Assembly: GCA_963971425.1 (NCBI GenBank)
Contig: OZ020514.1
Coordinates: forward strand, 14,079,218-14,143,217
Length of the DNA stretch: 64,000 bases
Source of the DNA: Bryoerythrophyllum caledonicum
Lineage: Eukaryota > Streptophyta > Bryopsida > Pottiales > Pottiaceae
Direction: 5' to 3'
The notes beneath the pieces are model-generated. The model was not told the origin of the DNA, ran no database searches, and worked only from the letters and a program-made list of their open reading frames with translations. Below, piece by piece: positions 7,746-57,714 of this stretch; within the stretch, counting starts at the first letter, position 1, and each line of letters begins with the position of its first letter. The position numbers and the translations under genes are program-made.

Positions 7746-8080
7746 TGTGGGAATCCGTTCCCACAAGGTTCCGGAAGTTAACCTGAAAATCCGGCAAAAA
7801 CAAAAAAAATTTAGTGTTAGAATGTTAGAATGATAGGTTTGAACCATAGAATAGATAAATAAGAAATAAGACAACCTAGGGGTACCCAAGATCTTAAAAG
7901 CGCTTAGGAATTACCATAAATCCAAGGGATCCGGAACCGAAGAAAACACTCACATCCGGAACGTGCCGGAAGCATCCGGAACCGGAAGTAAACCGGAGCC
8001 GAAAGGCACCCGGATCCGGAACCGGTCACGAGCCGGAACCGCCATCATGACCATAACGGCCCTCCGTACACCGCCGAAAG

Positions 8081-8088
8081 TATAAAAG
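8081..8088 (+). promoter_or_regulatory. TATA box of A1
   Basis: A TATAAAAG octamer lies 335 bp inside the element and 163 bp before the chosen start codon, in a CG-rich context. It is a good match to a plant RNA polymerase II core promoter, so A1 probably carries its own promoter. A2 and A3 have ACTTAAGG or ACTTAAAG at the corresponding place. Confidence 0.6.
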
Positions 8089-8250
8089 CAAGAAGCTAAA
8101 TTTGGCTTCCCTCACTTCTTGGGTTGCTCTTCTCCCTTGCTCTCTACTTTCGTGATCGCATTAGAACGAAAGTATTTCCACTTGTGAGGGTGTGTGGTAA
8201 GGACAGTGCCTGCAGGTGAAACCGGAGAGACTGTGAGAGTTTTTGTAGAC

Positions 8251-10239
8251 ATGGCGGAAGGCGAACTTTCCTGGACTACCCGAGGTACGACGACCCAGCC
8301 AACAGTACATCGGGTGGTACCGATCATACCGACAGATCCGGAGGAGAAGGCCGTCCTCGAACATTACCTCACCAACATGGGCTGCCACGGGCTGCTTGAC
8401 GTTGGGTGGAGAGCGAAGGAGGCAAAGCTGGTGGTGGAGCTACTCGGTGCACCGGACAACCAGTACGACGGCACCATACGAGCTCACCCCGAGACATGGG
8501 GTATTTCGGAGTGGCAGCGTACCTACTCTTTCAATAGCGGAACCGTCAAGACAGCAGAGCGGAACGACGACATCCTCGGGGACGAGTTCACGAAGCAAGC
8601 TGACCCCAAGGAAGGCTACAGTACCGACGACCTCCGGCATCAGGACGTCCAAATTGTGGTAAGGTTCTTGAACCCAATCTTTCACCCGGAAAAACCCAAA
8701 CGGGTGGTGTCTAATTGGGCCACCACAATTCTAGGTTCGATGAGGGAGAAGTTTAGTCTAGATTGGGCCTTGCTTATGAGCGAGATGGTCAACCGGATGG
8801 TGAGAGGGCTCCAGAAGTCGAAGAGGGCCGGCACCCCTCTTCCCTTGTACCTCACTCACCTCTACGCGCAACACGATGTACTTACCCCGGACGAGCAAGA
8901 TGCATACGCGCTGCTGCTGGAGATCGAGGACTATGGTGGTCCGAAACCAGTAGACGACAACGAGACCATGGAAGATGCGGAAGCTTCCTTGCCCAAGGCT
9001 GTTCCCCAACCCCGGAAGCGGAGCCGATCCATACCAAGAGAGTCAACACCGGGACCATCTACATCGATTCAGCCAACGGGTGGGCAACCTCCGCAAGACC
9101 CCAAGCAAGCTCCACGTGATGGTCGCATTCCTCCGGCGGAGCCCCCGCACCTCGTTGGGCTCGACGGGCCCGACCTACTAGGGCTCATTCAACATGCAGG
9201 TTGGCGTGCGGTGATCGTGTGCCAATCCGAAGCACGATTACGAGAAGTCTTCGACGGCATCCGGCGGGAGCTGGAGGTGGAGAGGGTCGTGGAGATATCG
9301 ACATCGATCCAAGAACTACAGAAGAACACGCTCCGACTCCAAGCCCTGGAGATCCAACAGGCTGCTATCATCCGGAGTCGAGATCAATTCGTGGTCCAGT
9401 GCGACGAGGCGTATACGGCATTGACAGAGTCCCGGAAGAAGTTGAAGGAGGCCGAAGATCGAGCAAACGCGTCTGTCGAAGCCTTGAGCGAGGTACGTGA
9501 AGCATTGGCATTTTCGGTTGACACGGTCAACCGGAGTCTGCTTTTTACAGGTCAGCTGGAGCAGGAGGGCAAGCTGAACCGGGTGCAGATTATACGCTTC
9601 CTGCACGATCACGGCAAGAAGATGGAGAAGACATGGATTTGCATGCAGGAGTTGGTAGCTAACATAACCCCGGAAGGACGAGAGGACCGGAGCACCCAAG
9701 CACCAGAGGACCTAGCATTTCCGGTCCGGATCCGGACGTCCCCAGACAAAGCCAGACCTTCAAGCATACACCCGGAGGCTTCCGAGAAGCAGAAGGAGAT
9801 CTTAACTCAGCCGGAGCCTACTACGCACGGGAGCAGCAGTCCTACCGGCAATCCGAACACCGGTACCGGAAAGCACTGGACGGGTTTACTTCCAGAGGTA
9901 AGTCAGAACGAAACCCCTTCTCCCCTAAGACCGCAACCGACTCCTCTTTCATCAAGCCGCCGGAAGTCCACTCTCCCGCTTGCGAGGCGTTTGGCAACCG
10001 ATCCCCCCAGTTCCAGAGCCCAGTTTCAAGGCTTCGTTGAAGCTCCGGAGACCATTGTGGTAGATTCCGTTTCCGAGCCAGCTCCACCGGCAGCATCACA
10101 TGTTCCAACATCTGGAGCCGGATCACAGGACATTCCGGCAGTTACTACCCCACTACGTAGGAGGGCCGGCAAGTCCAGGGCAGAGACTTCCACAAGGCGT
10201 ACCAGTCCTCCATTCAAGAGCGTTGGATCACCTCCTTAG
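8251..10239 (+). CDS. Element A protein, intact copy, coiled-coil protein of unknown function
   Basis: This is a continuous frame of 662 codons from ATG at 8251 to TAG. The frame is open further upstream, but only from a GTG, which is not a plausible eukaryotic start. Residues 20-210 form the conserved domain shared with A2, A3, B and C. They include FTKQADPKEGY (about 113), FLNPIFHPEKPKRV (about 139) and TPLPLYLTHLYAQHDVLT (about 195). Residues 245-310 are a Pro/Ser/Arg linker with a KRSRS cluster that may be a nuclear signal. Residues 320-415 are heptad-like and probably coiled coil, followed by FSVDTVNRSLLFTGQLEQEG. From about 477 onward the tail is Pro/Ser/Thr-rich and ends in a basic segment. 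The N-terminal part resembles in layout the 'putative plant transposon protein' domains found in plant retroelements; this is inference. No transposase, RT or nuclease motif is visible. It may be a Gag-like structural or DNA-binding protein. It lies in A1 with no companion gene. Confidence 0.85.
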   Translation: MAEGELSWTTRGTTTQPTVHRVVPIIPTDPEEKAVLEHYLTNMGCHGLLDVGWRAKEAKLVVELLGAPDNQYDGTIRAHPETWGISEWQRTYSFNSGTVKTAERNDDILGDEFTKQADPKEGYSTDDLRHQDVQIVVRFLNPIFHPEKPKRVVSNWATTILGSMREKFSLDWALLMSEMVNRMVRGLQKSKRAGTPLPLYLTHLYAQHDVLTPDEQDAYALLLEIEDYGGPKPVDDNETMEDAEASLPKAVPQPRKRSRSIPRESTPGPSTSIQPTGGQPPQDPKQAPRDGRIPPAEPPHLVGLDGPDLLGLIQHAGWRAVIVCQSEARLREVFDGIRRELEVERVVEISTSIQELQKNTLRLQALEIQQAAIIRSRDQFVVQCDEAYTALTESRKKLKEAEDRANASVEALSEVREALAFSVDTVNRSLLFTGQLEQEGKLNRVQIIRFLHDHGKKMEKTWICMQELVANITPEGREDRSTQAPEDLAFPVRIRTSPDKARPSSIHPEASEKQKEILTQPEPTTHGSSSPTGNPNTGTGKHWTGLLPEVSQNETPSPLRPQPTPLSSSRRKSTLPLARRLATDPPSSRAQFQGFVEAPETIVVDSVSEPAPPAASHVPTSGAGSQDIPAVTTPLRRRAGKSRAETSTRRTSPPFKSVGSPP

Positions 10240-10279
10240 GTAGATTAAATTTAGTAGTATTAGTAGCTTAGTGATTGGA

Positions 10280-10329
10280 ATTAAGTAGCGATTAACGATG
10301 GGGCCCAAAGTTGCACCCAGCTACTTAAT
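10280..10329 (+). other. Conserved hairpin just after the A1 gene
   Basis: A perfect 10-bp stem, ATTAAGTAGC (10280-10289) with GCTACTTAAT (10320-10329), encloses a 30-base loop containing TAACGATGGGGCCC. The loop core is conserved in A2 and A3. In A3 the arms read CAGCAGC and GCTGCTG, so two base pairs change on both sides together. It lies 41 bases after the stop codon and could be an RNA structure in the 3' UTR. Confidence 0.65.
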
Positions 10330-10749
10330 CCGGAAACTAAGGCTTCCGGAAACTTGTAAACACTTCCGGAATTTTGCGTACTTTTTGGATGTCCGGAATC
10401 CGGACCCGGGGAAATAGGATCTGAGATTCTCTTTTCCGGATTTTTAGGGATAAGATCCTACGGATTTCTTATAGATAGGATAAGCCTTAAATTAGGAATA
10501 GTTCTAGTACTTAGTAGACGGGTTTTGGAAAACTCATCACCTTGTTTCTTTTCCTTTACGTTGAATATATTTCAGAGCTTTCACTGGATTTTCTACCTAG
10601 TACTTGTGAGGAGAGTTGTTTTACGTGTAAGGTTCAAGGTCCGTTACTGTAGTATGTATTTGTGCAAGTTTCTTCGAAGAGAAGGCTGTTTTGTTGAGCT
10701 AAGGAGTGAACCGGCTTGGATCTTCAGCAGGGGAGTGTCCGGAATAACT

Positions 10750-10850
10750 GGAGGAGGTTGTAGAGGTGTTCATGGTCACCTTCAGAAGACCGGAAGAACC
10801 AGGAGGGGAAGAGATCTATTGCAGAGGTGTTCCTGGTAGTCTCTAGGGCA
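10750..10850 (+). repeat. Paired GAGGTGTTC-TGGT motif in the A1 3' region
   Basis: The motif GTAGAGGTGTTCATGGTCAC at about 10759 is repeated as GCAGAGGTGTTCCTGGTAGT at about 10821. The second copy is followed by CTCTAGG, which can pair with CCTGG-type sequence. The same two-copy arrangement is present in A3 (56419 and 56482) and A2 (46318 and 46377), so it is a conserved feature of the family rather than chance. Confidence 0.55.
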
Positions 10851-11140
10851 CGGACTAGTCCTATGAACCCGGATTCCGGTCCAAAATCGGAGTTTACCCC
10901 CACGATAGGAAAAACCTGCTATGTGAGTCTAGAAGGAGTCCTCCCCAGTGAAACTACATCACTATCTTGGTAGGGCTACAAAAGTGCTACCGGAATGTCG
11001 TTGTAGTCAGGGCGTACCTTTGTGTGACTGCATCCGGAAGGCCTTCCGGATGTCGTGAGAGTTACGTCTAGGATCAACACCATATCACCGGTTAGTAGAT
11101 TAGGGGGAAAGTGATTGTCCGGTCACTATAAACACCGGAG

Positions 11141-11226
11141 CAGTGAGTGTCTAGCCACTTAAAGTCACAAGGCAGTGGGGAATCTGGCCACTTACACAAA
11201 ATAGGATCAGTGGCCTTCCGGTCACT
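11141..11226 (+). other. Triple AGTGG/CCACT hairpin array of A1
   Basis: Three short inverted repeats follow one another: AGTGagtgtctagCCACT, AGTGGggaatctggCCACT and AGTGGccttccggtCACT. Stems are 4-5 bp and loops 8-10 bases. Order and spacing are the same in A2 and A3, where the loop sequences differ. A CACT upstream at 11124 can pair with the first AGTG. Conservation of the arms with changing loops argues for a structural or multi-site binding role near the 3' end. Confidence 0.65.
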
Positions 11227-11555
11227 CGTTTAAACCTTCCGGAAGCCGCTCTGAGGAGGAATAGAGGTAAATCAAACTACCCTCCTGGTTTCCGGAAACC
11301 ATTTCCGGGAACAACTGTATATACCTTCCGGAAACTAGTTCCGGAAAGTTTTGCTTGGGTTTCGGAATCCGGAAGGATCCGGAACTATTACTGAATAGAT
11401 TAACTAACCTAGGTGATGAATAGAGTAGTGGTTTTGGGATAATTTGAAAGGATAAATAGATCTCTGTGGGAACGAAACCGGAGTGGTTTACTTTGGAAGC
11501 ACTTAGTGACGATTGAGCGCATTCCGGAGGAATACTGACTCTGCAAACTACGACA

Positions 11556-11992
11556 AAAGGTAACAGGAAGGTCTCTCCCGACAGGATGCAAGTTGATGCA
11601 CTTCCGGAATTAGTCAAGGAACCGGAATCCGAAATTGGATTCCAAACCCCAGGTTTGGTACTAAAGAAGCGAGAGGATGAGCAGCTCCCAAATGCTAAAC
11701 TGAGGAACAAAGGCAAGAAGAGAGAGGTGAGTAAAGATGAGAACGCCACACCGGATTCCAGGGTTTCTAAGAGGCAAACCACGATAGGACAAGAGAAGGC
11801 AACGCCTTTGATACGTCAAACCTGGTCAATGTCACGCACAGTGACTCACGATTGTAAAAAAGACATATGCAAGTAAGAGAGTCAAAGTGCAGCAGGTCGT
11901 GAGCAAGGAAGATGAAGAAGAGGCGAGGTTGCCACAAGTAGGGACTTTGACGGACAAAGAACTAGATTCATTGGAGGAAGAAGAAAACTAGG
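11556..11992 (+). pseudogene. B1 element protein, part 2 (C-terminal part)
   Basis: After the A1 duplication aaagg the B1 frame resumes as KGNRKVSPDRMQVDALPELV and then TPDSRVSKRQTTIGQEKATP, matching the C-terminal part of the B2 protein (TPDSRVSKRRTLSVSENSTP). The segment is Lys/Arg/Glu-rich and probably disordered. The frame shifts near 11855 around TVTHDCKK. An acidic tail (LDSLEEEENXEHEGDD by eye) runs to about 11990, again like the acidic end of B2 (SSEEDEGQDQEDK). Restored continuity across A1 is the evidence that A1 inserted after B1. Confidence 0.7.
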
Positions 11993-12388
11993 AGCATGAG
12001 GGCGATGATTAGGTGAAGACGTGCTAATTTAGAGTCCAAGAAAATTAGCCGTAGAAGTTAGGGTTAAATGTAGAATTAAGCAATCAATGTGATAATCTGG
12101 TAAGTTAGGGTTTGCAATTGGAACTGGCTCCATGATTTGTGGATTTGATCCATGATTTTCATATATGGTCGGTAGTCGTTGGAAAGGTGGATGAACAGCT
12201 ATTAAAAGTCGTTTTGGACTATTTGTAGGCATCGTAGGAAGGCAGACCCACGATGCACATTGTAGGTTTCGCGGGTTTTTTCTCCCACGGAGGGATACTT
12301 AGTGGTAGGTTGCAAGGTTGTTAGGGTCTTGTGAGCTTGTCTAATCCTAAGGGTATTGGAGGACTACAGACCCGATTTCTACTTGGAT

Positions 12389-12835
12389 TTCCGCAAATGG
12401 GTTGAAAGCCTTAATTGGCCGCAATCTTATCTAGAATTCAGATTCTGTGATCTTAGTATTAGGGAGGGTTTAGCAAGCACCAACTGTCCGGCGGCGTTCC
12501 CTATAGCTGTAAGAGATGCGCTATCCTATTTTGTATCAAGTTTGTACCCTTGATCTTGATACCTTCCAACTTCAGTTTGTGTGTGCACCAAAGTAACCCT
12601 AACATGGTACCACTCCATTAGCTAATGGATGAGTTGCCTTTGGATGCCCAAATTGATGTGGAACGGAGAGGTTATAGATTTGGGTTTTCTTAGGGATCCG
12701 CAAATGGGTTGAAGGCCTTGATAAGCCGTAACCGGATCCAGATTCTTAAGGAAAGTTGTCGTTGTAGTAAGCAAAGGGTTGGAATACATTTTGCGTGACC
12801 GTCTATTTGGCGGAGTTCCTACAATTGTGAGGAAG
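12389..12835 (+). repeat. Internal duplication in the B1 3' region
   Basis: A segment starting CCGCAAATGGGTTGAAAGCC (12390) and ending GGCGGCGTTCCCTATAGCTG recurs from 12697 as CCGCAAATGGGTTGAAGGCC, ending GGCGGAGTTCCTACAATTGT near 12830. The two copies are about 305 bp apart. B2 has two corresponding blocks (about 60.1-60.25 kb and 59.8-59.95 kb, minus strand), so the duplication is older than both insertions. Confidence 0.5.
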
Positions 12836-13265
12836 TAGACACCACCCTAGTGCATGTGTATGTGTTGTGTTTGGAAGTGGTTAGGATTGATGGTGGAGTC
12901 TTTTGCTACTCTAATCTACGAGAGAAGAGTATTGAACACCGTCCCTCCCCAAATAAGACGTGTTTTCCAATAGCTAACATCACAAGGGTAAACTAGAGTT
13001 GGATTACCGTGGTTCAATATTCTTGGATCCGGAATCATAACCGGAAACAGGAAGAGAGGAAGGGCAATCCGGATAACCAGAAGAGTGAGGTAACGAGATT
13101 GAATCTAATTTGAAAGACAAAAAGAAAGAAGCATAGATAGGAGTGGCTGACCGGATTAGCCAAACTTCACCTGAATCCCTAGAATGATACACGAGTCACT
13201 GCTTGGAGTGTTTCTGGCACTCAAAACACTCAAGAGAATGCACTCACAATAACCGTGTTCCGACA

Positions 13266-13790
13266 CACTTCACACTAAGAAACATACATGGCAATCTGCT
13301 TATACATGTTGGTCCACCAATATTGGTTGAGAAATATGAAATGTATCTATCGTACACCAAAATGTAGGTCTTTGTGTATTTGCCGTACCAACAAAGTCCT
13401 TTGATCTTGACTGGAAAATATGCACCTAATCATTTATGGCCACACTTAAAATAGAAGGCCATTTTTCCAAAGGAACCCTGCTATTCGATGTCCAATTCAA
13501 TCGTGCTCCATGGCAGAAAGAGCTCGGGCAAGTGTCTTATGTTGTAGCTTCTGCAAGACTAGAACCTCTTCTCATACATTGCTAACAACTTGTGCCTTTC
13601 CCGGTTCCTCATCCGCAATTAAATTAGACAACATACATAGGGAACTAGACATCAAAGTAAGGTAGGCCGCTGCATGCCATCCCAGGACTAACTCTCCGTC
13701 ACAGTTACCATGCCATGTGACACTAGTCAAATCTTCCTCCAATGGACTTGGATTGTGAGAAACAAGAAGATCGTGTTAGTGATTGGAGAG
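13266..13790 (-). pseudogene. Gypsy G2 fragment: RNase H-integrase linker and integrase zinc-binding region
   Basis: Read on the minus strand from 13790, this stretch gives VSHNPSPLEEDLTSVTWHG, then WHAAAYLTLMS, DEEPGKAQVVSNV, AMEHD and LLVRQIHKD. Each matches the same order in G1 (LSRNPNPLKEDLSGARWHG, WHAAAYISLMS, DEEPNRAQVISGV, AREHD, LLIRQVHKD). It ends at the B1 insertion site and continues at 5873. Several stops and small shifts are present. The upstream RNase H and RT of this copy are missing above about 13790, where the region containing gene F begins. G2 and G1 belong to the same Gypsy family. Confidence 0.8.
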
Positions 13791-13849
13791 TGCTTGTAGC
13801 TAGGTTGTCACATTCCTCTAAAATCTGAGCTCCCAGACCTCCCGGATGT

Positions 13850-13975
13850 CTCTGACGTCCCGTCTGTCTAGACATGGGTAAATAGGCAGTCGCCAATTTA
13901 CCCTAGGTCGCTACTTGGTAGTGGCCCGATGGCTCGCCGACCGGGCCGGTCGCCGCTCAATTGCCCTAATATTAT
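13850..13975. other. GC-rich island flanking gene F
   Basis: Unlike the AT-rich DNA around it, this stretch is rich in CGACCGGG, CCGGTCGCC and GTCTCTGACGTCCCGTCTG. A similar island lies on the far side of gene F at 18175-18265. Such CG-rich subterminal blocks are known from CACTA-type and some other transposons. No terminal motif or target duplication could be fixed. Confidence 0.35.
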
Positions 13976-15050: not shown

Positions 15051-15058
15051 TCCAATTC

Positions 15059-29435: not shown

Positions 29436-29774
29436 GCGACCTTATGTGTATTTATAAATTAATCATAATTGTATGCAAGACATAATTAATGTGTGATTAA
29501 TTGATAAAGACATGAGAGAGAGGGATGCATGAGTAAATAAGCAACTTGAGACCATTTTGAGTAATAACTCAAAATATGCAAGTATAAAAGTGTTGGTTAT
29601 TTCTTACTGTTGTACCACAAATTTCCAAAAAAAATTTAGATAGTCAATTAGAAATGTTAAAACTAAACAAACAGTGAGGTTTGGGAGTTGGTATTAAAGT
29701 AGTATTAGCATTTAGGTAGGATTAGGGTAAGAAAGATACTAGACTACTTAAAAAGCCTTAAAGCATATAAGGAA
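29436..29774. other. AT-rich interior of element C, no gene
   Basis: The sequence between the left arm and the first minisatellite is AT-rich and holds nothing recognisable. Confidence 0.5.
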
Positions 29775-29860
29775 GGGCCTAACATCCGAACCTAGCACCC
29801 GACCCTACACCCAAACCTAACACCCAAGCCTAGTACCTGAACCTAGCATCCAAGCCAAGG
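29775..29860. repeat. Short CCTAACACCCAA-type repeat
   Basis: About seven imperfect units of 10-13 bp occur, such as CCTAGCACCCGA, CCTACACCCAAA and CCTAACACCCAAG. It directly precedes the GAGCTC minisatellite. Confidence 0.55.
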
Positions 29861-29865
29861 ATCCA

Positions 29866-30780
29866 AGCAAGTAGGCGGGAGCTCAAAAGCTCACCAGTTT
29901 GGGAGCTCGGATGCTCACCAGCGGAAGATCGGAGGCTCACTAGACTAGGAGCTCGGAAGCTCACCTGCTCGGGAGCTTGGATGCTCCCTAGCCCGGGAGC
30001 TCGGACGCTCACCATTCTGAGAGCTCGGAAGCTCACCAGCCCGGAAGCTCGAAAGCTCACCAAACCGGGAGCACGGTAGACTCACCAGCCCAAGAGCTCA
30101 AAGGCTCACTAGCCGGGGAGCTCGGAAGCTCACGTGCTTGGGAGCTCAGATGCTCACCAGTCCGGGAGCATGGAAGACTCACCAGAGCGGAAGCTCGGAA
30201 GCTCACGTGCCCGGGAGCTCGGGAGGTCACAGCCTAGAGCTCGGAGACTGTTGCAGAAAGTACGGAAGTGGGCCAGCCCGGAGTCGGAGCATGAGCGCGT
30301 GAGAAGAACGTTTGAGCAGCAAGGTTGGAGAGCTCAGAGACCGGAGCTCGGAGAGCAGCAGGAAAGAGGAGCAGGGAGACTGCTGTAGTAAGCGCGGAGA
30401 GCACACCAGCCTGGAGTCGGAACTAGGAAGCCGGGGGAATAACGTCCGAGCGGCTAGCGGCCGGAGCTCGGAACTAAGAGGCCGGTAGAAGAATGTCCGA
30501 GCAGCGAGAGCAAGAGCTCGGAGATTGCTGAAGGAGCTCGAGAGCTCACAGCCCGCAGCTCGGAGAGTGCTGCAGGAAGCACGGAGAGCTCACCTGCTCG
30601 GAGTAGGAGCAAGAGGCAGGTGGAAGGACGTTTGAGCAACAAGAAGGAGAACTGGGAACTAGCAGTGCAGGAAGCTCGGAAGCTCACAGCCTGTAACTTG
30701 GAACGAGCAGTGCAGAGAGCTCGGAAGCTCTCAGCCCGGAGCTTGGAACCAGCTGTACGGGGACTCATCCGAGGAGGAGA
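29866..30780. repeat. GAGCTC minisatellite, unit about 30 bp
   Basis: A unit of the form CGGGAGCTCGGAAGCTCACCAG recurs about twelve times between 29870 and 30240 with a period near 30 bp. A longer, more irregular arrangement with GAGCTCGGA and GAGCAGCAAGG blocks follows to about 30780. The GAGCTC palindrome and the facing GAGC/GCTC halves could form hairpins. The array runs almost to the start codon of the C gene, so it would lie in its promoter or 5' leader. Confidence 0.75.
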
Positions 30781-30946
30781 CCGGTGGAAGATCATCCATC
30801 TAGTAGGCCGGTGGAGGCTCGTCCGAGCAGCGAGCTCGTGCGGGCTCATCCAAGCAGTGGGCAAACATCAGAGCACGCAAGGAGCAAGGACTTTCACCAG
30901 CTCGGACCAAGAAGTGAGTGTCTGAAGCAACACCTAGGCAAGAAGC

Positions 30947-32985
30947 ATGACTTCGTTCAACCTAACAACTTCCATGGCAAATGGCATCTCCCCCATCATC
31001 CCAAGGGATCCTCTTGAACTTATCAAATTGAAGGAGGACCTTCTTCGAATGAGTTGTCTCTCTCTCCTCGACTTTTGTTGGAGTTTTTGTGTCGATTCAA
31101 TCGTGCAAAAGCTACGGCAAGATCTGTTACCAAAACCGGAGGGGAATGACATCCGAGCTTGTCCGGATTGGTGGACCATAGGAGGGTGGCAGGAGGTGTA
31201 CGGTTTTCCACGAGAGGGAGCGGGATGGACAAGTTTAAAGAAGGATGAGTACACCAAGGGATGTTTTGGCACCAAGGATGCCAAGAACGGTTATGCATTG
31301 CAAGATTGCCTGGATCCCCGAGCCAAGCGGGTCTTTTTGTTCCTCGTACCAATCCTACACCCGAGGAAACCCACTCAAGTCACTATCACTCTTGCTAATA
31401 CCTTGTGTGGTTCCTATCTTGGAGAGAAGATGGTGAGTTGGGCCTTTATTGTGAAGGATGTAGTGATTAGGTTGCTAAAGAGCGTCAACAACACTAAGCG
31501 CTCACCCTTTTGTCCCTTCTTGATCCACCTCTATCACGACTTCAAAGAAACCATTCCGGAGGAGGCCATGGCGTATGAGACTCAACTTATGATGAATAAC
31601 TTCAAGAGGACGGAGTCGGAGCCTGAGCCTAGATTTGAAGGAGGAAGCAGCTCATCGCAGTCAGAGGAGGAAGCTCTACCACCTCCCAAACTTCAAAGAC
31701 AGAGGCAGGGAAGAGCACCTTCTATCCGACTCGAGCTGCAGCTCGTGCAGCCGCTACAAGACTAGCTCAGCTCCGAGGTAAGACTTATCGTGCATCCAAG
31801 TTGATAGAAGCTCTTTGTTTGTATGTGGACGACGTAGATAAGATTCTAGGATACGTGGGCAACTTGGTAGGTAATCCACCTTACCAAGGACTGGTTGCCA
31901 CGGCCAAGGAGAAGATTGGAGGAGCTGGTGACCTCCGCATCATGGAGCAGAAGGTCCATGGGCTCACTCTTGATATGACAAAGATGAAGAGTCGTACATT
32001 GGAAGTAGAGAAGAGTTGCAAGGAGGCTCTTCTCCAAGCCAACGATTTGGCAGCAACATTACAACAGGTGGAGGAGGTGCTGCACTTACCGGCAGTTGTG
32101 GTGATGAAGGCCAAGATATTTGATGCTAGATTGGAGAGGGGTGACCATATTTCGAGCAAAAGGGTGATTGCCTTCATGATGGAGCAAACCGTTGAGGTTG
32201 AGGCGGCGTATGCTAACATGAGGTTGTTGATGGGCAACCTTATCCACATCCTACCCAAGGTTGTAGAGGATTCGGATAATTCGGGCAAGGATGCAAATTC
32301 TGGCTTGGAAATTGATTTGGAGAGGCAAGGCTCGAGTGACTAGGACCTTCCAGCGGAGAAGGACACGATTGATCTTGATAGCCCGGACCTTCCCTCACAG
32401 ACTCCCCCTTTGGAAGTTGCTGCTTGTCATTTTCCTATGGAGATCACCACGCAGCTCTAGAGCGGAAGTAAGGAGAACTTGGGTGTCACAATGGAACCTC
32501 CACGCACGACCCTCCCTTGCGAGTTTTCCCTTATAGGCATTGTTCACTCCACATTGGCCATTGTCCCTTTGCAGAGTGTGTCTCGTTTTGAGAAGATCAC
32601 GAGTGAGAGTTTCGCTTACTTACGCCTCCCGGTGCGGCTTGAAGACAAGTCCGGACACACGTCCGGGCAAGAGGTCTTTATTGGGACCCCAAGCCAGGTA
32701 CCGGTCCTTCCAGTCCGGTCCGAGCTCCATACAAGCACAACTTCCGTGCCACTCACTCCGGGCGGCCCGAATACCTCTTTGACTTTGAAGGAGACCTTAC
32801 TTTGGTCATCCATGACCCGGCTCGCATCCTCTTTGTCTGCAGATTTGTTATCACCACTTGTGACTCTTGCAAAGGCCACGTCCAACTTGACCTTAAGCCG
32901 GAGCCCTAAAAAATGGAAGAGGAGAGAAGAGAAGAGAAGATTTAAGGAGTTGGTTTGGAAGTATGCCTGGAATCTTGTTTCGTAG
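30947..32985 (+). pseudogene. Element C protein, relative of the A and B proteins
   Basis: The frame opens with ATG at 30947 and reads MANGISPIIPRDPLELIKLK after a few residues. It contains KDAKNGYALQDCLDPRAKRV, ILHPRKPTQVTITLANTLCG and FCPFLIHLYHDFKETIPEEA. These align in order with DPKEGYSTDDL, IFHPEKPKRV and LYLTHLYAQHDVLTPDEQ in A1 and with LANTIWG in B2. A single frameshift near 31630-31700 moves the frame. After it the text runs through TSKTEAGKSTFYPTRAAARA and a coiled coil (EQKVHGLTLDMTKMKSRTLE) to a TAG at 32341-32343, and then in the same frame through another TAG (32458-32460) to TAA or TAG near 32985. The C-terminal third (RFEKITSESFAYLRLPVRL onward) has no match in A or B. Function unknown. 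The copy is inactive unless the shift is a programmed or intron event. Confidence 0.7.
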
Positions 32986-35284
32986 GTCACTGTTCAATCG
33001 CGGATTAGGCTCCGGTTTGAACTTGGGTTTAATTTGGTTTTGCCTTGGAATTTGTGTGATTAGATGCCTTTTGACTTGGCACGTTGAGTTGGTGGGACGG
33101 TGGCCACTGCCGTCAAAGGTAGTTTATGTCGCCGTTTTTAGTTAGAAGACATCGTTTACTTTTGGCGTTTGTGTGTGTTTCCAAGCAGTACAAGTGGGGA
33201 GTCTCTTGGCTCCTCTCTTCACTGCTTCATGTGTGTATTTGCTTTCAATTTAATTCTGAATCTACGCTCTCAAAGCCTCTCATGGTTGGGGAGCTCGAAT
33301 TCTATACATGATTGTGAGTACCATTTCAAATAGTCCGCTCCTTAGTTCGTTCTAACCTTCTTGTTGTTGTTTCTTTGCTCCATCATTTAGAGTAGTTAGA
33401 TAGGGTGGGAATAACTAGTGAGACAAAGGGAGGGTAGGGAGGCGTGAATCCAAAATTGAACGTTTGTTGTTGTTTCCTTGTGCCATCACATAGAACTAGT
33501 TCAGGTAGGATGGGAATAACAGGTGAGACAACAAATGTTTAAAGGAGGAAGAGGGGGGAGTGACGGGTGAGGAAGGAGTCTTGGTATGTCTTGTGTTTCC
33601 TATTGGTGGCAATATGTAGCCGGTTGTGAGGGCGTATTTCAGATCCCGGATGCATCAACCTTTGGTCAGATGGTTGATTCATAGAAGCACTACATTACCT
33701 TAGCGTCAAGTCTAATTTCCTTTCCTTTGAGCAAATGTCTATTGGAGTTGGCTGAACCCAAACCTATGTGTTAAGGACAGAGTAGGACCTGATTTGATCC
33801 CTTGTGCAAATGTCTATGAGGTTATAACTAGGAAATACTCTAACAGCTCGGATTACCTTGAGAGGAGGAAAGATATCTAACTACTCCCTTTGTGCAAATG
33901 TCTATTGGGTGCGGAAGGAAAAACTTTGTTCTCTATAGGAAAGGAGTAGAGTCCGTGGTCCCTTGTGCATGTCTATGTGGACTAGTTAGATAATACTCTT
34001 TTAGTCATCCCGAGGTAAAAGAAGGATTAACAGATCGGATGGAAGGTAGGTAAGCGACGTGCTTACCAGGAGAGTTGCGCTAGTTCTAAAGGCCTAAGTC
34101 CTTATCGCCCTTACGGGAAAATTGCAATAAAACCACCATCATCCAAGTGAGTGAGTAGTAGTAGGAGGAGAGAATGTGAGGAAGAATTGTCGTCACCCAT
34201 GCAAACACTAAAATCTCTTTGAGTCCATGAACCATTGTTTGTGGTGATATATACTCCCGGAATATTATGTACTCCGGATGTCTATATTGTTCATATGTCT
34301 AAAGCTATTCCGATAAGACTAGATTAATTATAACCGGTACTACCGTGTGGAACGACTACAACTAGGGTAGTTAGCTGGGGAAATTAGGGTTCTTGTCTTA
34401 AGAACATGATCACGTGGACCGAGTAGACGGACGTGAAAAATGGAGCGATTTTGCATGAGGTAAGACTTTGAATTCTTAAAGGCTGTAATTAAGGAACGAA
34501 TGCAATGAGACTTAATGTAATCTTCCATTAGCCCAATGTGGCAAGTGTTTAAGAATTAGTGGCATAAGCATAATCTTAAAAGGACTATTGTTCCTTTTTG
34601 AGGCACGAGAGATCCTTTGGGGTTAAACTTTGTTTGTGGATCCCTTAACTTGCACTGTCTAGACCAATTCAACCCTACAGTGTTCTTAAGTTTCTGTCTT
34701 AAGACTTCCAAAACCGGGAGTGCATCTCACTGAATGCAAATGTTGTCCCGTATTCTCACTCATACGAACCTTTAAGCCCAAGCCCTTAAACTTAAGGGTC
34801 TCCTGGTACTTAAGGTCTCAACCTTCATAAGCTTATATTATCCAAACTTGGACTTAAGATTCTTAAGTTTCTATGTTCTTATCTTAAGTCTTTCTTTGGA
34901 ATTTGTTCCTTATTTTCTCTCTTATGATAGATTCTTAAATACTTACAACTTAGCCTACCTTAGAGAATTTCTTCTATTAAGGTTAGACTTAATGCTAATT
35001 TTTTGTATGCATAATATGACACTCTTGCCATGCATCAAGGTATGCCACTCTTGATGTTTATTGCATAAATTGCATTAACATGAATAAGAACTCCACTTTT
35101 ATTCTTATGATACTCAAGTTATGCTCACTCACACTTGAGATCTTACTAAGTACTTATGCACCACACACCTCATGCACTAAGTCACTTAATTTCACATTAT
35201 CTTCATTAATCTTTACACTTATGATTAATGCTCCAACACACACACAAGGTCACACACACAACCTTAGTAGTTAAGGTATTTTCC
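32986..35284. other. 3' interior of element C with short repeats, no gene
   Basis: There is no gene. Two tandem copies of a 103-bp unit start TTGTTGTTGTTTCTTTG (33361) and TTGTTGTTGTTTCCTTG (33464). The string CCTTTGTGCAAATGTCTATTGG or variants occurs at about 33726, 33799, 33887 and 33960, spaced 73-88 bp. Between 34640 and 34920 the palindrome CTTAAG and the half-site TTAAG are unusually frequent. Both may be subterminal motifs of the element. Confidence 0.55.
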
Positions 35285-45612: not shown

Positions 45613-45922
45613 TGTTGCAATTTGTAGAGACAATATCCCTCCGGAATGCACCCAATTGTCACTAAGTGCTTCCCAGAGTAACCGCTCCGGTTTCGTTCCC
45701 ACAGAGACCTAATATTCTTTCTTCAATACTCCGGATTACTTAAACTTTATCCCAACAATCCTTTTATGAGTAAGCTATATTCTTCACTTACGTAGAGTAG
45801 ATCCGGATCCTTCCGGGGTCCGGATTATGTACAATGGTTTCCGGAAGGTAATTTCCGGAAATCTGGAGGGTAGTATAATTTGCCTCTGTTCCTCCTCAAA
45901 GAGTCTCCTGGAGTTTTTAAAC

Positions 45923-46010
45923 GAGTGGCCGGAGTCCACTGATCCTATTTTGTGTAAGTGGCTGGATTTCCAACTGCCCTGTGACTTAAAGTGGCTAGGC
46001 ACCCACTGTC
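45923..46010 (-). other. Triple AGTGG/CCACT hairpin array of A2
   Basis: Minus-strand text gives AGTGGgtgcctagCCACT, AGTTGgaaatccagCCACT and AGTGGactccggCCACT, in the same order as in A1 and A3. Here the middle arm carries one change. Confidence 0.6.
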
Positions 46011-46828
46011 CGGAACTTATAGTGACCGAACACCACTCTCCCTACAAAGCTAACCGATGATATGATTGCTGATGCTAGACTCAGACTCTCACGACATCCA
46101 GAAGGCCTTCCGGACGCGGTCACACAGAGCTAAGTCCGGACTACAACGATATTCTGGGGAGTACAGTTGCAATTCTCCGGAACAGAGGCTTACCGTTCGC
46201 TATGGGTACTCCGTCTAGATCTTTGTATCAGGCTTTTTCCTATCTTAGGAAGAACTCTGGTCGCTGACCAAAATCTAGTTTAACACGGATTGTTCCGTGA
46301 ACTAGAGATTACCAGGAACACCTCTGCAGTTCATCTCCTCCCCTCCTGGCCACTTCCGAACCCTGGAGACTACCAGGAACACCTCTGCAATAGCTCTCTC
46401 CAGCTTTCCCAGGCGATCTCCTGACACTGACCTAGATAATTTTCCCCTCCGGCTAAACACTCGAGTTACACTATTCCGGACGAACCGTTCATACAACAGT
46501 ACTCACAAAAATGGATCAGGCCCTCATAAGTCATAAACACCACACCAAAAGTATCAGAGAGCAAGTCTGAGTAGAAGGGAGCGAAGTTTATTTTGACCTG
46601 AGAAAAACAAGAACAACAGTTTTTGCCAAAACCTCACCGCTAAGTACTAACTACATTCCTTCTAAACTAAGCCTTCCGCCTAGCCATTTACAGGAAGTCT
46701 GCTAGATCTTATCTAAAAGATCCGAGAAATCCGGAAAAGTTCCAGATCGGATCTCAGATCCACAAATCTCGGAACACTTTCGTCTTTGGATTTCCTATTC
46801 TAACTACAAAATTGGGCAGTCGATTCTG

Positions 46829-46878
46829 TTAGCAGCCGGATGCACTTGGAGCCCCATCGTTAATCGCTGATGATCCGG
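46829..46878 (-). other. Hairpin after the A2 gene
   Basis: Minus-strand ATCAGCGATTAACGATGGGG leads through a GC-rich loop to CCGGCTGCTAACAG. The arms pair AGC with GCT plus one further G-C pair and then have a mismatch, so the stem is weaker than in A1 and A3, while the TAACGATGGGG core is unchanged. Confidence 0.45.
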
Positions 46879-46926
46879 AATCTAAGCCCAAGAAAACAAG
46901 AAAAGGAAATCCAAAGCCTAACTAAC

Positions 46927-48752
46927 CTAAATCGGAGCACCTCAGCCCCGATTTCTCCCACTCGGGCGGGAGGGGGAGATCTCCACCGGAACGCGTTGCT
47001 TGCCCTTTGCCTTCTTTGACGTTGCAGGCAAAAGGGTGGTCTTCCGAGTCGATGGTTTGGCTGTTGGAGGAACAACAACCACCAAAGTCCTTGCGTCCGG
47101 CGATGGAGGGGGCTGTTCCGGTGATCCTTCCGGGACCGGAGGTGCTGGTGTTTCCGTCGTGGAAGCTGACTTAGTCTCCTAGACCAAGTCCCTATAGCTT
47201 CCGGACGGACTCCTTGGTCCGGGCGCCAATCTCCGGGACACGGACCTTGGTGGATTCGGGAGGTCACCTTCCGCCAGAGTATGTAGCAGTCGCATGTTGG
47301 GTGGCAACATAAGGTCCGGAAGCTTCTTCAGGATCTTGCTCATGCTCGGATTGGGGAGCACGATACCCTCCGCCGGTGTTCGAGGCGACGGAGTGTCTAG
47401 AGACTCCGGATTCGTTGAGGTGCCCGGAGCTCGAGTGGTCTTGGCCGGTGGTTCCGGAGGGACTACGATTCGTGTTGTGGTCGGGGTGCCTTCCGGTCAA
47501 GGTACTGCTGGTTCTTCCGGAAACTCCACGACGATGTTGTCGACCAGCAACTTCATCTGCTCTTAGGTCCGTCCCATCTTATCCGCCTGATCAAGGAGGA
47601 ACCGGATGATGTTGGCCCGGGTGACCTTCTCCTTCTTCTCCACTAGTTCGGTGAAGAGCCGGCTCTAGTTGATCACGTCAACCGGAAACTCCAGGGCTAC
47701 CCTCCGGAACATTGGCGCACCGCGACCACATCTTGTGATTCGTGTTGTGGTCGGGGTCCAGCCAATGTTGGGGATGAGCTCATCCATTAGCTTGAGCTGA
47801 CCCTTGGAGTCGTCCCGGTCCACCTTCCTCTTCTTCCGGTCGTTCCTTCCGAGGGTCCGGACTCATCTTCTCCGGATGACGCGGATGAGCTGCAGATGCC
47901 CGGACTCTCCGCCTCGGGCTCCTTCCCCCGAGGTCTCTTCGAAGCCTTCCGGCCTTCCAGAGTGCTTGTGGTGGCTGCTTCTGGCGCTGGCTCCTCCTCT
48001 CCGGATTCTTCCTCTTCAGACTCGTCCCCTCCGTACTTCTGGAAGTTGAGAACTTCGTCGTATTTCCGGATTTCCGCCAGAGTAAGTTGCTGGTGGTGAG
48101 CATAGACATGCACCACATAGGATGCCAAAGGTGTTGCCGTCTTCTTCACCTTTTGGAGGTTGGCTACAAGACGGTTGATCATTTCCGTCATGAGCGTCCC
48201 CCAGTCTACCACTATCTTCTCCTAGAGTGCCCCAAGGATAGTGCAGGCCCACTTCGCCACCAACCGCTTCGGCTTTTCCGGATGGAAGATAGGGTTTAAA
48301 AATCCTAGCACGAGCTGGGCGTCCAAGTGCTTAAGGTCCTGCAAGTTGTAGCCGTCCTTTGGATCCGCCGATCCGGCAAACTCGTCTGTCAGGAACTCGT
48401 CCCGCCGTTCTACCACCTTGGTGCGGCCGCCTTGGAAGTTGTACGCCTGAGACCATTCCGGAACTCCCCAGTTTTTCGGATGGGCTCTTAGCAACCCCTT
48501 GTACTTCTCGTCCGGGGTGCCTATGAGTTTCCACACGTAGACCTCCTCCCGCATGCCCCAGGGGACTTCGAGCAAACCCTCGCAGCCCATCGTCTTCACG
48601 CTCGACTGCAATAGGTTAAACTCGTCAAGGTCTTCTGAAATGTCCGGAAGGACGCGGGCCAAGGGTGGGAGCACCACTGCAGGTTCTTCGTCTCTCCGGC
48701 CGCGCCCATCTCTGTCTGTTTGCTTCTTCTTGGCCATCGGTACAGACTTCAT
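46927..48752 (-). pseudogene. Element A protein, A2 copy (broken)
   Basis: The start codon homologous to that of A3 is at 48752 (MKSVPMAKKKQTDRD). The N-terminal domain is well kept (ADPKDGYNLQDLKHLDAQLV, FLNPIFHPEKPKRLVAKWA) up to a TAG near 48223, where A3 has an Arg codon. The same frame then continues to about 47787 (ATPLASYVVHVYAHHQQLTL, KRPRGKEPEAESPG). About 280 bp of the coiled coil present in A3 is missing between roughly 47790 and 47720. A 21-base string, GATTCGTGTTGTGGTCGGGGT, occurs twice nearby (47466 and 47738). The remainder has TAG, TAA and TGA stops and ends in the frame PVEISPSRPSGRNRG. The protein is as described for A1. The copy is dead. Confidence 0.75.
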
Positions 48753-49261
48753 GGGAATTCCTCTCACCTCACAGTCTCTCAAGGTAGTCCTTGCACGCAT
48801 TGTCCTCACAAAAGCTCTCCCTAATGGACGCACGTCCGTTCTAAAGGTCTAAGCTTCAAACCCTAACGACCAGCAGTTAGAAAACTGTAAGAGAGAGAGA
48901 GAGAGAAGGAGAAAACCCTAATGCGGAACCCCAGTACGCGAGGAAGAAATGGAGAAGAAAGAGTTTTCCCCCCCAAACCCCAGCCTTAAGTAGTCGGGCC
49001 GTTAGTACGGCATCATGATGACAGTTGATGGCGACGGTTCCGGATAACTGACTGCCCCGGAATTCCGGTAACTACTCTGGCTCCGCTTTTAACAGTTTTA
49101 GGCTTATTAAGTGTTTACAGTCCGGCCCACTTGACTTTATTATTGCATCAAGAATATAGGTTGTATTCTAGCACGAACTAACATAAATATTTAACTAATT
49201 TTTTTGTTTTGGCCGAAATTTAAGGTTACTTCCGGCACCATGTGGAAAACGGAGTCCCACA

Positions 49262-50872: not shown

Positions 50873-50874
50873 AA

Positions 50875-52212: not shown

Positions 52213-52435
52213 ATTTTTGACCAATTGAAAATTAATCTAGTGTGGTCTGATTCGTTCACTGGGGAGGTATGTAATTAAAGAGTTGGGATTATGACTTCAA
52301 CACCCATGGGATGGCTCAATCCAGACTTAACCTAAGTACCCATGCTTCCATAACACCTCATTGGTGATAGTACCAATCTCTCAATTTTCATATGTAAAAC
52401 CAAAAGCTAACCTCTTATTGGTGCAAGATGTATCT

Positions 52436-52792: not shown

Positions 52793-53976
52793 GACATTGC
52801 TCCCATCTCGGCAATCAATGCTTCATTCATTTAATGACATCTTTTTCTCCATTTTCCAATTATTCTTTTTCTTTAATTTTCTTCATTTCCTTTTCCACTT
52901 CTTCTTATTTTTTTAATCCACACTTCTCTTTTTATTTATTTTTCTATTTATTATATTTATTATTTTATTTATTTTATTTTTCTCTTATCAGACGCAGGTC
53001 TGATTACTCTCCAATTGTTAACTTTTTTTCAATGGTTTTAAGAGCCAATGCGGTAACACTTCCCAATCTGGCCTCAATCAACTCTAGCATACATCGTACC
53101 AATTGGTAACATGGCCATGGCATGCACCCATGCCTGTTCAACTTCTCCAATTGGTTTCAGTCTACTCTTCAAACACAGTCAACTCCGGTCAGTTCAATTA
53201 CCAATGGGTGACACAACTTCCCATTGATAATTACTCACTCACAATTACACACACTCAGCGTGGCTTCCTCGTTGGTTTCTCCAATTTGTCTACAACGACA
53301 CTCCCTCAACCGTCCTCCAATCACTATTGTCTAATAGTCTCAATCACATTCTCTTCACTCACCCTTTTTATTGATTTTCATAATTTTATAAATCAGACAC
53401 AAGTCTAATTATGCTCCAACCAACTTATCCCTCAGTCAATTCTTCCTCCCATAGGTGTGGGACTCCGTTCCCACGTGGTGCCGAAAGTTACCCTTATATT
53501 CCGGCCAAAACAAAAAAAATTAGTAAATAGTTACGCTAGTTCGGTCTAGGGAACAACATATAGTCTTGATGAAAGAATAAAGTCGGAGGAGACAATCTGC
53601 AAACCCTAATTAAGCCTAAAACTGTCAAATACGGAACCGGAGCAGTTACCGGGATTCCGGTTCAGGTGGTTATTCGGAACTGTCGATCGGAACTCTCACC
53701 GTCAACCGTCATCATGATACCGTACTAACGGTCCGACTACTTAAAGTTGGGTTTGGAGGGATACTCTTTCTTCTCACTTTGTCTTCCCGAGCCTCGGCTT
53801 GTTCTTTCTTTTGCTCTTGCTTTCTCTCTCGCTCTTACGGTTTTTCGAACCGCTTGCCATTAGGGTTTGGAGAATCGGACAGTTAGAACGGATGTGTGTC
53901 TGTTAGGGAGGGCTTTTGGTGAGGACGGTGCGTGCAGGGACAACCTCGAGAGATAGTAAGGTGATAGTCTGATTCC

Positions 53977-55885
53977 ATGAAGTCTGTGCCGATGGCAAAG
54001 AAGAAGAGAACGGACAGAGACGGGCGCGGCCGGAGAGACGAGGAGCCGGCAGTTGCACTGCCCCCCTTAACCCGCGTTCTTCCAGAAATTCCAGAAGACC
54101 CGGAGGAACTCGGTATGCTGAAGAACAGCCTGAAGTATATGGGTTGTGAGGGTTTACTCGAGGTCCCGTGGGGCATCCGGGAGGAGGTCTACGTCTGGGA
54201 GCTTGTTGGGTCGCCGGACAAGAAATACAAGGGGCTGATGAGAGCCCATCCGGAGGTCTGGGGTGTCCCGGAGTGGTCTCAGGCCTACGATTTCCGGGCT
54301 GGCCGCACCAAGGTGGTGGAACGGCGGGACAAGTTTCTAGCGGAAGAGTTCGGAACACTTGCAGACCCGAAGGATGGCTACAACCTCCAAGACCTTCGGC
54401 ACCAGGATGCCTTGCTCGTGCTAGGGTTTTTAAACCCTATCTTCCATCCGGAAAAGCCGAAACGGGTGGTGGCGAAGTGGGCCTGCACTTTCCTCGGAGC
54501 ACTCCGGGGAAAGATTGTCGTCGACTGGGGAACGTTGATGGCTGACCTAATCAACCGGTTGGTCGCCAATCTCCAGAAGGTGAAGAAATCGGCAACACCG
54601 CTGGCCTTGTATGTGGTGCACCTTTATGCGCACCACCAGCAACTGACTCAGGCGGAAGTCCGGCACTACGACGAAGTGCTTAACTTCCAGAGGTATGGAG
54701 CGGACGAGTCGAAAGAAGAGGAGTCCGGAGAAAAGGAGACTACGCCGGGAGCAGCAACCACGAGCACTCCGGAAGTCCGGAAGACTTCTAAGAGACCTCG
54801 GGGGAAGGAGCCCGAGGCGGAGAGTCCGGGCATCGACAGCTCCTCCGCATCTTCTGGAGAAGATGAGTCCGGACCATCAGAAGGAACCAACCAGAAGAGG
54901 AGGAAGGTGGACAAGGATGACTCCAAGGGACAGCTCAAGCAAATGGACGAGCTCACCCGAGAGATCGGCTGGAGGGTTGGTCTCCTTAAGGAGACCAACT
55001 TTGTCATCACCACCAGCGTTGAGCAGATCTTCCGGAGCCTGGACGTCGACCGGCTGGAGGACGCCATCAACCGGGTGGAGGAACTCCGGAACCGGGAGAC
55101 GGACTCGAAGGCACTGCATACGCAAATCTCCACCATGTACAAAGCTAGCAATGACATGGAGAAGAAGATGAAGCGGTACCTCGCGGAGGCCGCCCTGGCA
55201 GTGACGGCCCGGAAACTGGCCGAGGAAAAGGCTAACGCTTCCGCCGCCGCCTTGATGGAGGTCCGAGCAGCCCTGGAATTCCCGGTGGATACGATCAACT
55301 GGAGCCGACTCTTCACCGAACAGGTGGAGAAGAAGGAGATGGTCAGCAGGGCCAACATCATCCGGTTCCTGCAGGACCAGGCGGAGAAGATGGGCCGGAC
55401 ATGGGAGCAGATGCGACTGCTCGTTGACAACGTTACCTAGGGTCTTCCGGAGGACCACGAAGCACCGACACTAGGGGGGTCCCCAACCCCAGGACGGACT
55501 ACCGCCCCTCCGGAACCCCCGCCGCCTGCGACCACTCCTGCTCCGAGGACCTCCGCGACTCTGGAGACCTTGGACACTCTGTCGCCACGGACACCAACAA
55601 AAGGTATCGTACTCCCCAATCCGAGTACGAGTGAGATTCCGAAGAAGCTTCCGGAGCGGGAATGCCATCTCCCCCGATTTCGGAAGGATCACCGCAACAG
55701 CCCCCTCCACCGCCGGACGCCAGTACTCCGGTGGCCGTTGTCCCTCCAATAGCCGGACCATCGACCCGGAGGACCACCCTTTCGCCGGCAACGTCAAAGA
55801 AGGCGAAGGGCAAGGCGCGCGTTCCAGTAGAGATCTCCCCCTCCCGCCAGAGTGGGAGAAACCGGGGCCCAGGAGCTCCAACTTA
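53977..55885 (+). pseudogene. Element A protein, A3 copy (one TAG and one frameshift)
   Basis: ATG at 53977 opens MKSVPMAKKKRTDRD and stays open for 487 codons to a TAG at 55438-55440. The protein shows the conserved N-terminal domain (FGTLADPKDGYNLQDLRHQD, IFHPEKPKRVVAKWACTFLG, TPLALYVVHLYAHHQQLTQA), a basic cluster (KRPRGKEPE) and Ser-rich linker, a coiled coil (RVEELRNRETDSKALHTQIS and KMKRYLAEAALAVTARKLAE), and then FPVDTINWSRLFTEQVEKKE, matching A1. Beyond the TAG the same frame continues Pro-rich, and a shift near 55660 leads to PVEISPSRQSGRNRG at 55885, the same C-terminal end as A2. The TAG and shift probably inactivate the tail only; a 487-residue product could still be made. Confidence 0.8.
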
Positions 55886-55941
55886 GGATTAGATAGGTTT
55901 TGAATTTCTTTGTCTTCTTTTCTCAGGGTTAGAGTCCGGAT

Positions 55942-55984
55942 CAGCAGCGACTAACGATGGGGCCCCAAGCGCACCCGGCTGCTG
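55942..55984 (+). other. Conserved hairpin after the A3 gene
   Basis: CAGCAGC (55942-55948) pairs with GCTGCTG (55978-55984) around a loop with CTAACGATGGGGCCCC. A further CCGG on each side can extend the stem after a two-base bulge. Two pairs differ from A1 on both arms. Confidence 0.65.
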
Positions 55985-56409
55985 CCGGAATCAATAGCCA
56001 ATTTTGTAGATTAAGTAGGAATTCCGGAGACGGAACTGTTCCATGATTTATGGATCTGAGTTCGGATCTGGAACTTTCCGGATTTTTCGGATCTATTAGA
56101 TAAGATCTAGCGGTCTTCCCGTGGATAGGTAGGAGGAAAGACTAAGTTTAGTCAGGACTTAGTTAGTACTTGGTAGTAGGGTTTTGGGCAAAACCCTTTT
56201 ATCTTGTTCTTCTTTCTCGGAAATATACGCTACCATTTACACTAGATTTGCTACCTTGTGTTGATTGTGGTGTATGGAACTTGTGAGTGACGGATCCATT
56301 CTTGAGGGTAGAATTGTGTGAGTAATTCTTTCCGGAGTAGGGAAGTCCACTGTTTCGCCAGAGGGGGAAGTTGTCAAGATCGGTATCAGGAGATTGCCTG
56401 GGAGAGCTG

Positions 56410-56515
56410 GAGAGAACTATTGCAGAGGTGTCCTGGTAGTCTCCAGGGTCCGGAAGTAGCCAGGAGGGGAGGAGATGAACTGCAGAGGTGTTCCTGGTAA
56501 TCTCTAGTTCACGGA
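56410..56515 (+). repeat. Paired GCAGAGGTGT motif in the A3 3' region
   Basis: TTGCAGAGGTGTCCTGGTAG at 56418 is repeated as CTGCAGAGGTGTTCCTGGTA at 56481, 63 bp apart. Each is followed by TCTCCAGG or TCTCTAG, which can fold back on CCTGG. Same arrangement in A1 and A2. Confidence 0.55.
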
Positions 56516-56799
56516 AGTAACCGTGCTAAACTGAATTCCGGCCCCGGCCGGAGTTCTTCTCTAAGATAGGAAAAAAGCCTGGTACCCATATCTAGACGGA
56601 ATAACCATAGTGAATAGTGAATCTCTGTACCGGAAAATTGCAACCATAGCCGCCGGAATGACGTTGTAGTCCGGATTAGTCTTTGTGTGACCGCATTCGG
56701 AAGGCCTTCCGGATGTCTTGAGAGCCGACGTCCGGCAGCAGCAATCAAATTACCAGTTAGCGTAGTAGGGAGAGTGGTGTTCGGTCACTATAAGTTCCG

Positions 56800-56887
56800 G
56801 ACAGTGGGTCCCTAGCCACTTTAAGTCACAGGGCAGTGGGAAACCAAGCCACTTACACAAAACAGGGTCAGTGGACTTCGGCCACTT
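56800..56887 (+). other. Triple AGTGG/CCACT hairpin array of A3
   Basis: AGTGGgtccctagCCACT, AGTGGgaaaccaagCCACT and AGTGGacttcggCCACT follow one another within 85 bp. All six 5-bp arms are exact here, with loops of 8, 9 and 7 bases. Confidence 0.7.
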
Positions 56888-57714
56888 GCTTAAAAACTCC
56901 AGGAGACTCTCTGAGGAGGAACAGAGACAAATCAAATTACCCTCCCGATGTTTGGAACCTACTCTCCGGAAACCATTGTAGTAATCCGGATTCCGGAAGA
57001 ATCCGGATCTAACCTAAGTAAGAAAAGACTATAGCTAACTTGTAACCGAATCGCTTTGTTAAACTTAGTAATCCGGAGTATTGAAAAGAAGATATTTAGG
57101 TCTCTGTGGGAACAAAACCGGAGCGGTTACTTTGGGAAGCTCTTAGTGACGATTGGGAGCATTCTGGAGGAATACTATCTCTACGAACTGCAACAATAGG
57201 CAATTCAGATTCCCATGGATATTACTCACATTCACCACAATTCACCAATTGGAAACCAACCCATGGCATGCACTCATGCTGGTTCGTAAATTCCAATTAG
57301 CTTTAGATCTTCTCCATTCACAATTTACTCCACATCAACATCAAACTCCAATTACACAGATTTCCAGAATCATATTTCCATTTCTCCAATAGTTCCACAC
57401 ATCACAGTCACAGTCACACAAAAGAAAGCTAAAAACTCAACTAATACTTCCCTATCTCCAGGAAGGAGCTCCTGCACTACACACAAAGAGATTGTTTTTC
57501 CAATCGGGTTTGTCTTGACTTATACTATCCGATTGGTTTGGTTGGTTACCACCAACCACCTAGCTGCACTATTACTAACCTATTGGGAAATTAACTGCTA
57601 CTAGCCGCCGGTTACACTACCAGAATCCTACCTATTGGTAACACCACCACTCTAACCACAAAAAGTCACCAATAGAGGAAAAAAAGAAATTAATCTAACT
57701 ATCACAACCCTCGT

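Follow-up and report, generated by a model that had tools for sequence, protein, structure and literature searches.

The 64,000-nucleotide stretch of Bryoerythrophyllum caledonicum contig OZ020514.1 analysed here (the window; positions 14,079,218 to 14,143,217) carries five insertions that contain homologues of one gene and that probably represent solo long terminal repeats (LTRs) of Ty3/gypsy elements. Insertion A1 (7746-11555, plus strand, 3810 bp), a solo LTR with the intact gene, is nested in B1 (5874-13265 including A1, plus strand), whose left and right parts (5874-7745 and 11561-13265) give a net length of 3577 bp. Two further solo LTRs, A2 (45613-49261, minus strand, 3649 bp) and A3 (53456-57195, plus strand, 3740 bp), and an LTR-like unit, B2 (59347-62888, minus strand, 3542 bp), lie downstream. 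On direct reading of the ends, each of the five starts with TG, ends with CA and sits between exact 5-bp duplications: AAAGG for A1 (7741-7745 and 11556-11560), ATGGC for A2, ATAGG for A3, CACTT for B1 and AGCCT for B2. Such ends and duplications had been described in an earlier, sequence-only reading of the window, together with net lengths of 3.5-3.8 kb, and both descriptions are confirmed (3542-3810 bp measured). The same reading had proposed imperfect inverted repeats of 13-17 bp at the ends. This did not hold up: the ends of A1 match by eye at only about seven of the first 13 positions, TG/CA counted, and no real terminal inverted repeat was seen. The A1 LTR start (7746-7765, plus strand) forms a perfect 8-bp hairpin, TGTGGGAA-TCCG-TTCCCACA.

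Self-comparison of the window gave 75-81% identity between A2 and A3 over three long stretches, partial matches of 68-91% identity between A1 and A2 or A3, and 63-69% identity between B1 and B2. The flanks of B1 (5690-5873 and 13271-13760) match that of B2 (62889-63777); the older sequences that received the two B insertions are thus related, and they read like retroelement pol.

The gene of A1 extends from 8251 to 10239 on the plus strand (662 codons, ATG at 8251, stop TAG). A putative TATA-like box, found by eye at 8081-8087 on the same strand, lies about 165 bp 5′ of the start codon. The encoded protein has an N-terminal domain (N-domain), a coiled coil and a disordered basic tail; its most conserved part corresponds approximately to residues 40-250, which include FLNPIFHPEKPKR. 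A single gene of 600-660 residues had been attributed to each insertion. Homologues are indeed present in all five, but the gene is whole in A1 only. It is broken in A2 (47524-48665, minus strand) and in A3, where the longest open part spans 490 codons from stop to stop (53968-55440, plus strand). B1 retains gene remains at 6466-7055 (plus strand), and B2 retains remains of the N-domain (61715-62308) and an open stretch of 295 codons (60686-61573), both on the minus strand. A third relative of the LTR gene, C, is found at 30938-32343 (plus strand) as two overlapping open frames, with its N-domain at 30986-31579. Those N-domains of the A, B and C relatives that were aligned are 24-52% identical to that of A1.

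Ten proteins of 471-675 residues from other sources match the A1 protein with 36-46% identity. A second, profile-based search returned nine proteins, all among these ten. Using four N-domains and the B and C frames of the window, no match to Pfam-A was obtained at E values up to 10, with search filters that drop weak matches, and Pfam gave no transposase match for the LTR gene product. Several candidate relationships were rejected. No relative was found by sequence in the PDB, whole-protein fold matches aligned only the coiled coil, viral structures led nowhere, and none of 130 pattern matches in viral contigs was confirmed.

The genome (437,360,962 bases in 894 contigs, with the window on contig C1) was searched with a 1.5-kb A1 query. 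Among 564 candidates, the best 40 were scored and show 86-100% identity. Allowing up to two mismatches, the first 32 bases of A1 matched 360 sites (total count; places given for 100), as compared to none for the pattern read backwards. We fetched 20 further A copies. Both ends are present in 15 of them, and 11 of these 15 have an exact 5-bp duplication; the other five copies (L016, L019, L020, L026 and L028) miss an end and were left out of this count. One of the four remaining two-ended copies has a duplication at four of five bases, and the other three (L014, L018 and L022), which have no matching duplication, may have arisen when different elements recombined. No flank in register with the LTR border is common to two of the 20 copies, which shows that they are separate insertions. 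The 13 best rows of the 40 scored, A1's own locus included, are distributed as 12 on C1 and one on C9; C1 accounts for 65.2 of 437.4 Mb (15% of the genome). A young A1 subfamily seems to be concentrated on this outsized contig; this could be explained, for instance, if the contig were a sex chromosome or otherwise did not recombine.

One fetched copy, L020, revealed what can adjoin an A LTR. Directly 3′ of the LTR lies TGGCGCCGCTGCCGGGGA, a tRNA-type primer binding site, followed by gag. Primer binding sites of this kind are known from Athila/Tat elements. Pfam matches in the L020 interior were Ty3_capsid (1.8e-9), Retrotrans_gag (2.1e-9) and a zinc knuckle (1.3e-6). Using the first 2.2 kb of this interior as the query, 1286 candidates were obtained, and the best 40 scored included ten other copies with at least 85% identity. 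On contig C11, reverse transcriptase, RNase H and the integrase zinc domain lie behind an L020-type interior (89%). Gag followed by the order reverse transcriptase, RNase H, integrase is consistent with Ty3/gypsy. Neither a protease nor the integrase core was seen in the pol piece examined, and a Pfam search of two pol frames ending at the integrase zinc domain showed no additional archaeal-type RNase H, as found in the Tat clade.

The junction made of the LTR end CTACGACA, 2-12 bases and the primer binding site occurs 42 times in the genome, as compared to 0 for the control. Three of the 42 (on C1, C8 and C876, L020's own counted) adjoin L020-type interiors at 87% identity or more. Ten junction loci that were fetched belong to several families, with a gag match to that of L020 in nine and none in L045. 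Eight of these loci (L036-L039, L041, L042, L043 and L044) represent other gypsy families that have a related gag and agree with A in primer binding site and LTR end (CTACGACA). Two junctions 8.3 kb apart on contig C10 (528306 and 536614, both on the minus strand) are arranged as in a tandem LTR-interior-LTR-interior array.

At the other LTR border, purines directly precede the A LTR start at 44 sites, 17 of which carry A(A/G)GG(G/A)GTAA. A pattern combining the purine-rich tract and the LTR start gave 88 sites, 18 of them exact, with 0 in the control; the sequence was displayed for 37 of the 88. When the 40 scored interiors were compared with the 88 tract sites, 11 pairs were found in which a tract lies at most 25 kb downstream; interior and tract share the strand in all 11, and there was no opposite-strand pair. 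The estimated spacing from interior to LTR is 5.87-5.90 kb in five pairs, 9.71-9.79 kb in three, and 6.39, 8.62 and 21.8 kb in one each; the two pairs with interiors of at least 82% identity have a spacing of 9.7-9.8 kb.

Together, the primer binding site, the purine tract, the gag-pol interior and the 11 same-strand pairs show the anatomy of an LTR element for A. The sequence-only reading had raised the option of gene-carrying solo LTRs, to be checked by looking for direct A pairs around a gag-pol interior. For A the option is supported, while B is tied to it by its ends, duplications and gene homology; a primer binding site was not seen in any B element, the sole B-like copy seen outside the window having no such site after its end. 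As to direct pairs, the 11 interior-LTR pairs, matched by coordinates, are compatible with them. Two observations nevertheless weigh against this interpretation. In L020 the LTR is missing 390 bases at its start, and the next 30 kb contain no second A LTR. In addition, one prediction failed: for the complete element expected near 1,073 kb on contig C3, one of the five 5.9-kb pairs, an A LTR was absent from the predicted 5′ position. Considering all this, we assign a probability of about 0.85 to the reading that A1-A3, as shown by this anatomy, and B1-B2, by homology, are solo LTRs of Ty3/gypsy elements with an LTR protein gene. A complete A-type element would then begin with a gene-bearing LTR of about 3.8 kb, continue with a primer binding site, gag, pol and a purine-rich tract, and end with the second LTR, with a computed length of about 13.5 or 17 kb. 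Recombination between LTRs is an established source of solo LTRs in LTR elements generally. Here, it would drop the interior, so that 3.8 kb remain between the two copies of the original 5-bp duplication.

Variants of the gene were scored at positions covered by at least 12 A copies, leaving those in exactly two copies out of both classes. With A1 as the reference and shared variants following the relatedness of the copies, synonymous changes made up 92/208 of the variants in at least three A copies as compared to 199/646 of the singletons (p 0.0005). The same was observed in the N-domain plus coiled coil (57/118 shared versus 105/341 singleton, p 0.0008). The synonymous excess in the basic tail and the deficit of stops among shared variants were not significant (p 0.12 in both cases). 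Singletons fit neutrality: synonymous changes amount to 31% (29% expected) and stops to 3.9% (3.4% expected). Neutral singletons together with synonymous-rich shared variants indicate that the gene is selected while elements replicate and decays afterwards. The LTR protein was therefore, on statistical grounds, under purifying selection during replication.

The A LTRs are also rich in one short motif. In A1, A2 and A3, none of 300 shuffles reached the best hexamer, CCGGAA, whereas the best hexamers of B1 and B2 were reached by 38/300 and 19/300 shuffles. CCGGAA is dispersed through the A LTR and occurs in gag-pol as well. The LTR part of L043 is rich in ATCCGG (11 in 1.5 kb).

Other explanations of the A units were weighed against solo LTRs. 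TG...CA ends with 5-bp duplications are, taken alone, compatible with Ginger-like terminal inverted repeat elements that a Gypsy-like integrase mobilises, the other option of the sequence-only reading. This option is not supported and is highly improbable, since the A ends abut primer binding sites, purine tracts and gag-pol interiors and, in A1, agree by eye at only about 7 of 13 positions. A could also be its own mobile unit of LTR plus gene, copied in trans by gypsy machinery, with most copies never having had an interior. Among the best 40 of 564 A1 relatives, one stands beside a primer binding site (L020) and one beside a tract (C6:32,221,0xx), and no in-register flank is common to any two of the 20 fetched copies. 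Such a unit would lack the primer binding site and tract that reverse transcription needs, interiors bounded by A ends do exist, and LTR recombination, which long LTRs favour, accounts for solo units with duplications. We regard this explanation as improbable. The open frame might finally be a passive passenger, a captured host sequence of no use to the element, as could be argued from the fact that 19 of 21 A copies (A1 plus the 20 fetched) have no open frame above 600 codons; the two that do are A1 and L028 (642 codons from stop to stop). Single copies would be expected to decay once inserted, and the relatives of 471-675 residues from other sources, those in A, B and C elements and the synonymous-rich shared variants all speak against a passenger, which is very improbable.

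A stronger competitor concerns the role of the protein. The LTR gene may be a relocated extra open reading frame (ORF) of the Athila/Tat type, related to Transposase_32, Athila ORF-1 or Transposase_28, and may serve particle formation, transport or replication instead of countering silencing, with CCGGAA saturation a separate matter. The order of N-domain, coiled coil and tail resembles Transposase_28, and the motif spacing of the N-domain resembles Transposase_32. Extra ORFs and LTRs of up to about 5 kb are common in Ogre/Tat/Athila gypsy elements, according to PMC6317226, and PMC11728184 describes a sunflower Athila aORF resembling Transposase_32, itself related to Athila ORF1. Absence of a Pfam match at E values up to 10, with weak matches filtered out, argues against this proposal, which also leaves the CCGGAA excess without explanation. 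It is a tentative but serious one.

Known systems share parts of this arrangement. The sag gene of mouse mammary tumour virus lies inside a retroviral LTR, but this is an animal retrovirus with an unrelated protein, whereas here a gene of about 660 codons belongs to a gypsy element and occurs mostly in solo LTRs. Large plant solo LTRs likewise have TG...CA ends, 5-bp duplications and lengths of several kb; ordinarily they carry no conserved gene. Ogre/Tat/Athila gypsy elements have gag-pol, 5-bp duplications, very long LTRs and an extra protein gene as well. However, their extra ORFs are described as internal, usually located after pol and ahead of the 3′ LTR (PMC7264820; internal also in PMC6317226), whereas the present gene is part of the LTR itself and persists where a solo LTR is all that is left. 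No conserved gene inside a plant gypsy LTR was found in open-access titles and abstract openings, which is weak evidence of absence, and the open-access literature yielded no paper on a 'putative plant transposon protein' in an LTR context. In the Retand paper (PMC11963269), none of six terms occurs, 'in the LTR' and 'solo' among them.

The anti-silencing VANC proteins of VANDAL elements, such as VANC21, are transposon-coded, like the LTR protein, and gave the best structural alignment of the N-domain, a candidate VANC fold, though a sequence relation was not found. In the VANC21 system a short motif is packed into the element (PMC5735166), as CCGGAA is in A LTRs, where binding is putative. 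There are differences. VANDALs are Mutator-like DNA transposons, not gypsy LTR retrotransposons, and the VANC21 motif, YAGTATTAY, forms tandem repeats in non-coding regions, whereas CCGGAA is dispersed over LTR and gag-pol. By this analogy, the LTR protein might be a nuclear DNA-binding factor for its own element's TCCGGAA that counters silencing or activates transcription, like VANC. We put this forward tentatively as the likeliest role, although a function similar to that of the extra ORFs known from internal regions is nearly as probable. Rather more doubtful is the wider idea that a gypsy lineage placed a VANC-type, sequence-specific anti-silencing system in its LTR, so that 3.8 kb would hold the gene, its promoter and a high density of target motifs.

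Because the gene is in the LTR, each insertion makes two gene copies and each solo LTR keeps one. Loss of the interior thus spares the gene, and a trans-acting factor can be present in a copy number that does not depend on how many complete elements there are. Solo LTRs are usually regarded as gene-free relics; here each begins as a promoter-plus-gene unit, and lone LTRs could keep making a trans-acting protein. If the anti-silencing idea were true, hundreds of solo LTRs would be stand-alone anti-silencing genes able to reactivate in trans what complete elements are left, few as these are. Each family would then evolve its own matching protein and motif, as with TCCGGAA in A and the GAGCTCGGA arrays close to the C gene. 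A 2026 paper, in which a sunflower group asks about VANC-like factors, leaves open whether the methylation of LTR retrotransposons is shaped by factors that they encode themselves (PMC12844716). A silencing-countering LTR protein would bear on this question and provide many related proteins and motifs for testing.

Concerning C, 29594-34543 is one candidate for the limits of its element, though no better than chance. Two nested pairs of inverted repeats with 72-80% identity surround the C gene (24649-25960/40283-42498 and 28796-29535/35151-35931), and a 24-bp tandem array rich in GAGCTCGGA lies upstream of it (29876-30245). At L031 (contig C1, about 61,298,130-61,299,770), a 549-codon open frame was observed, presumably encoding a pogo/Tigger-type transposase.

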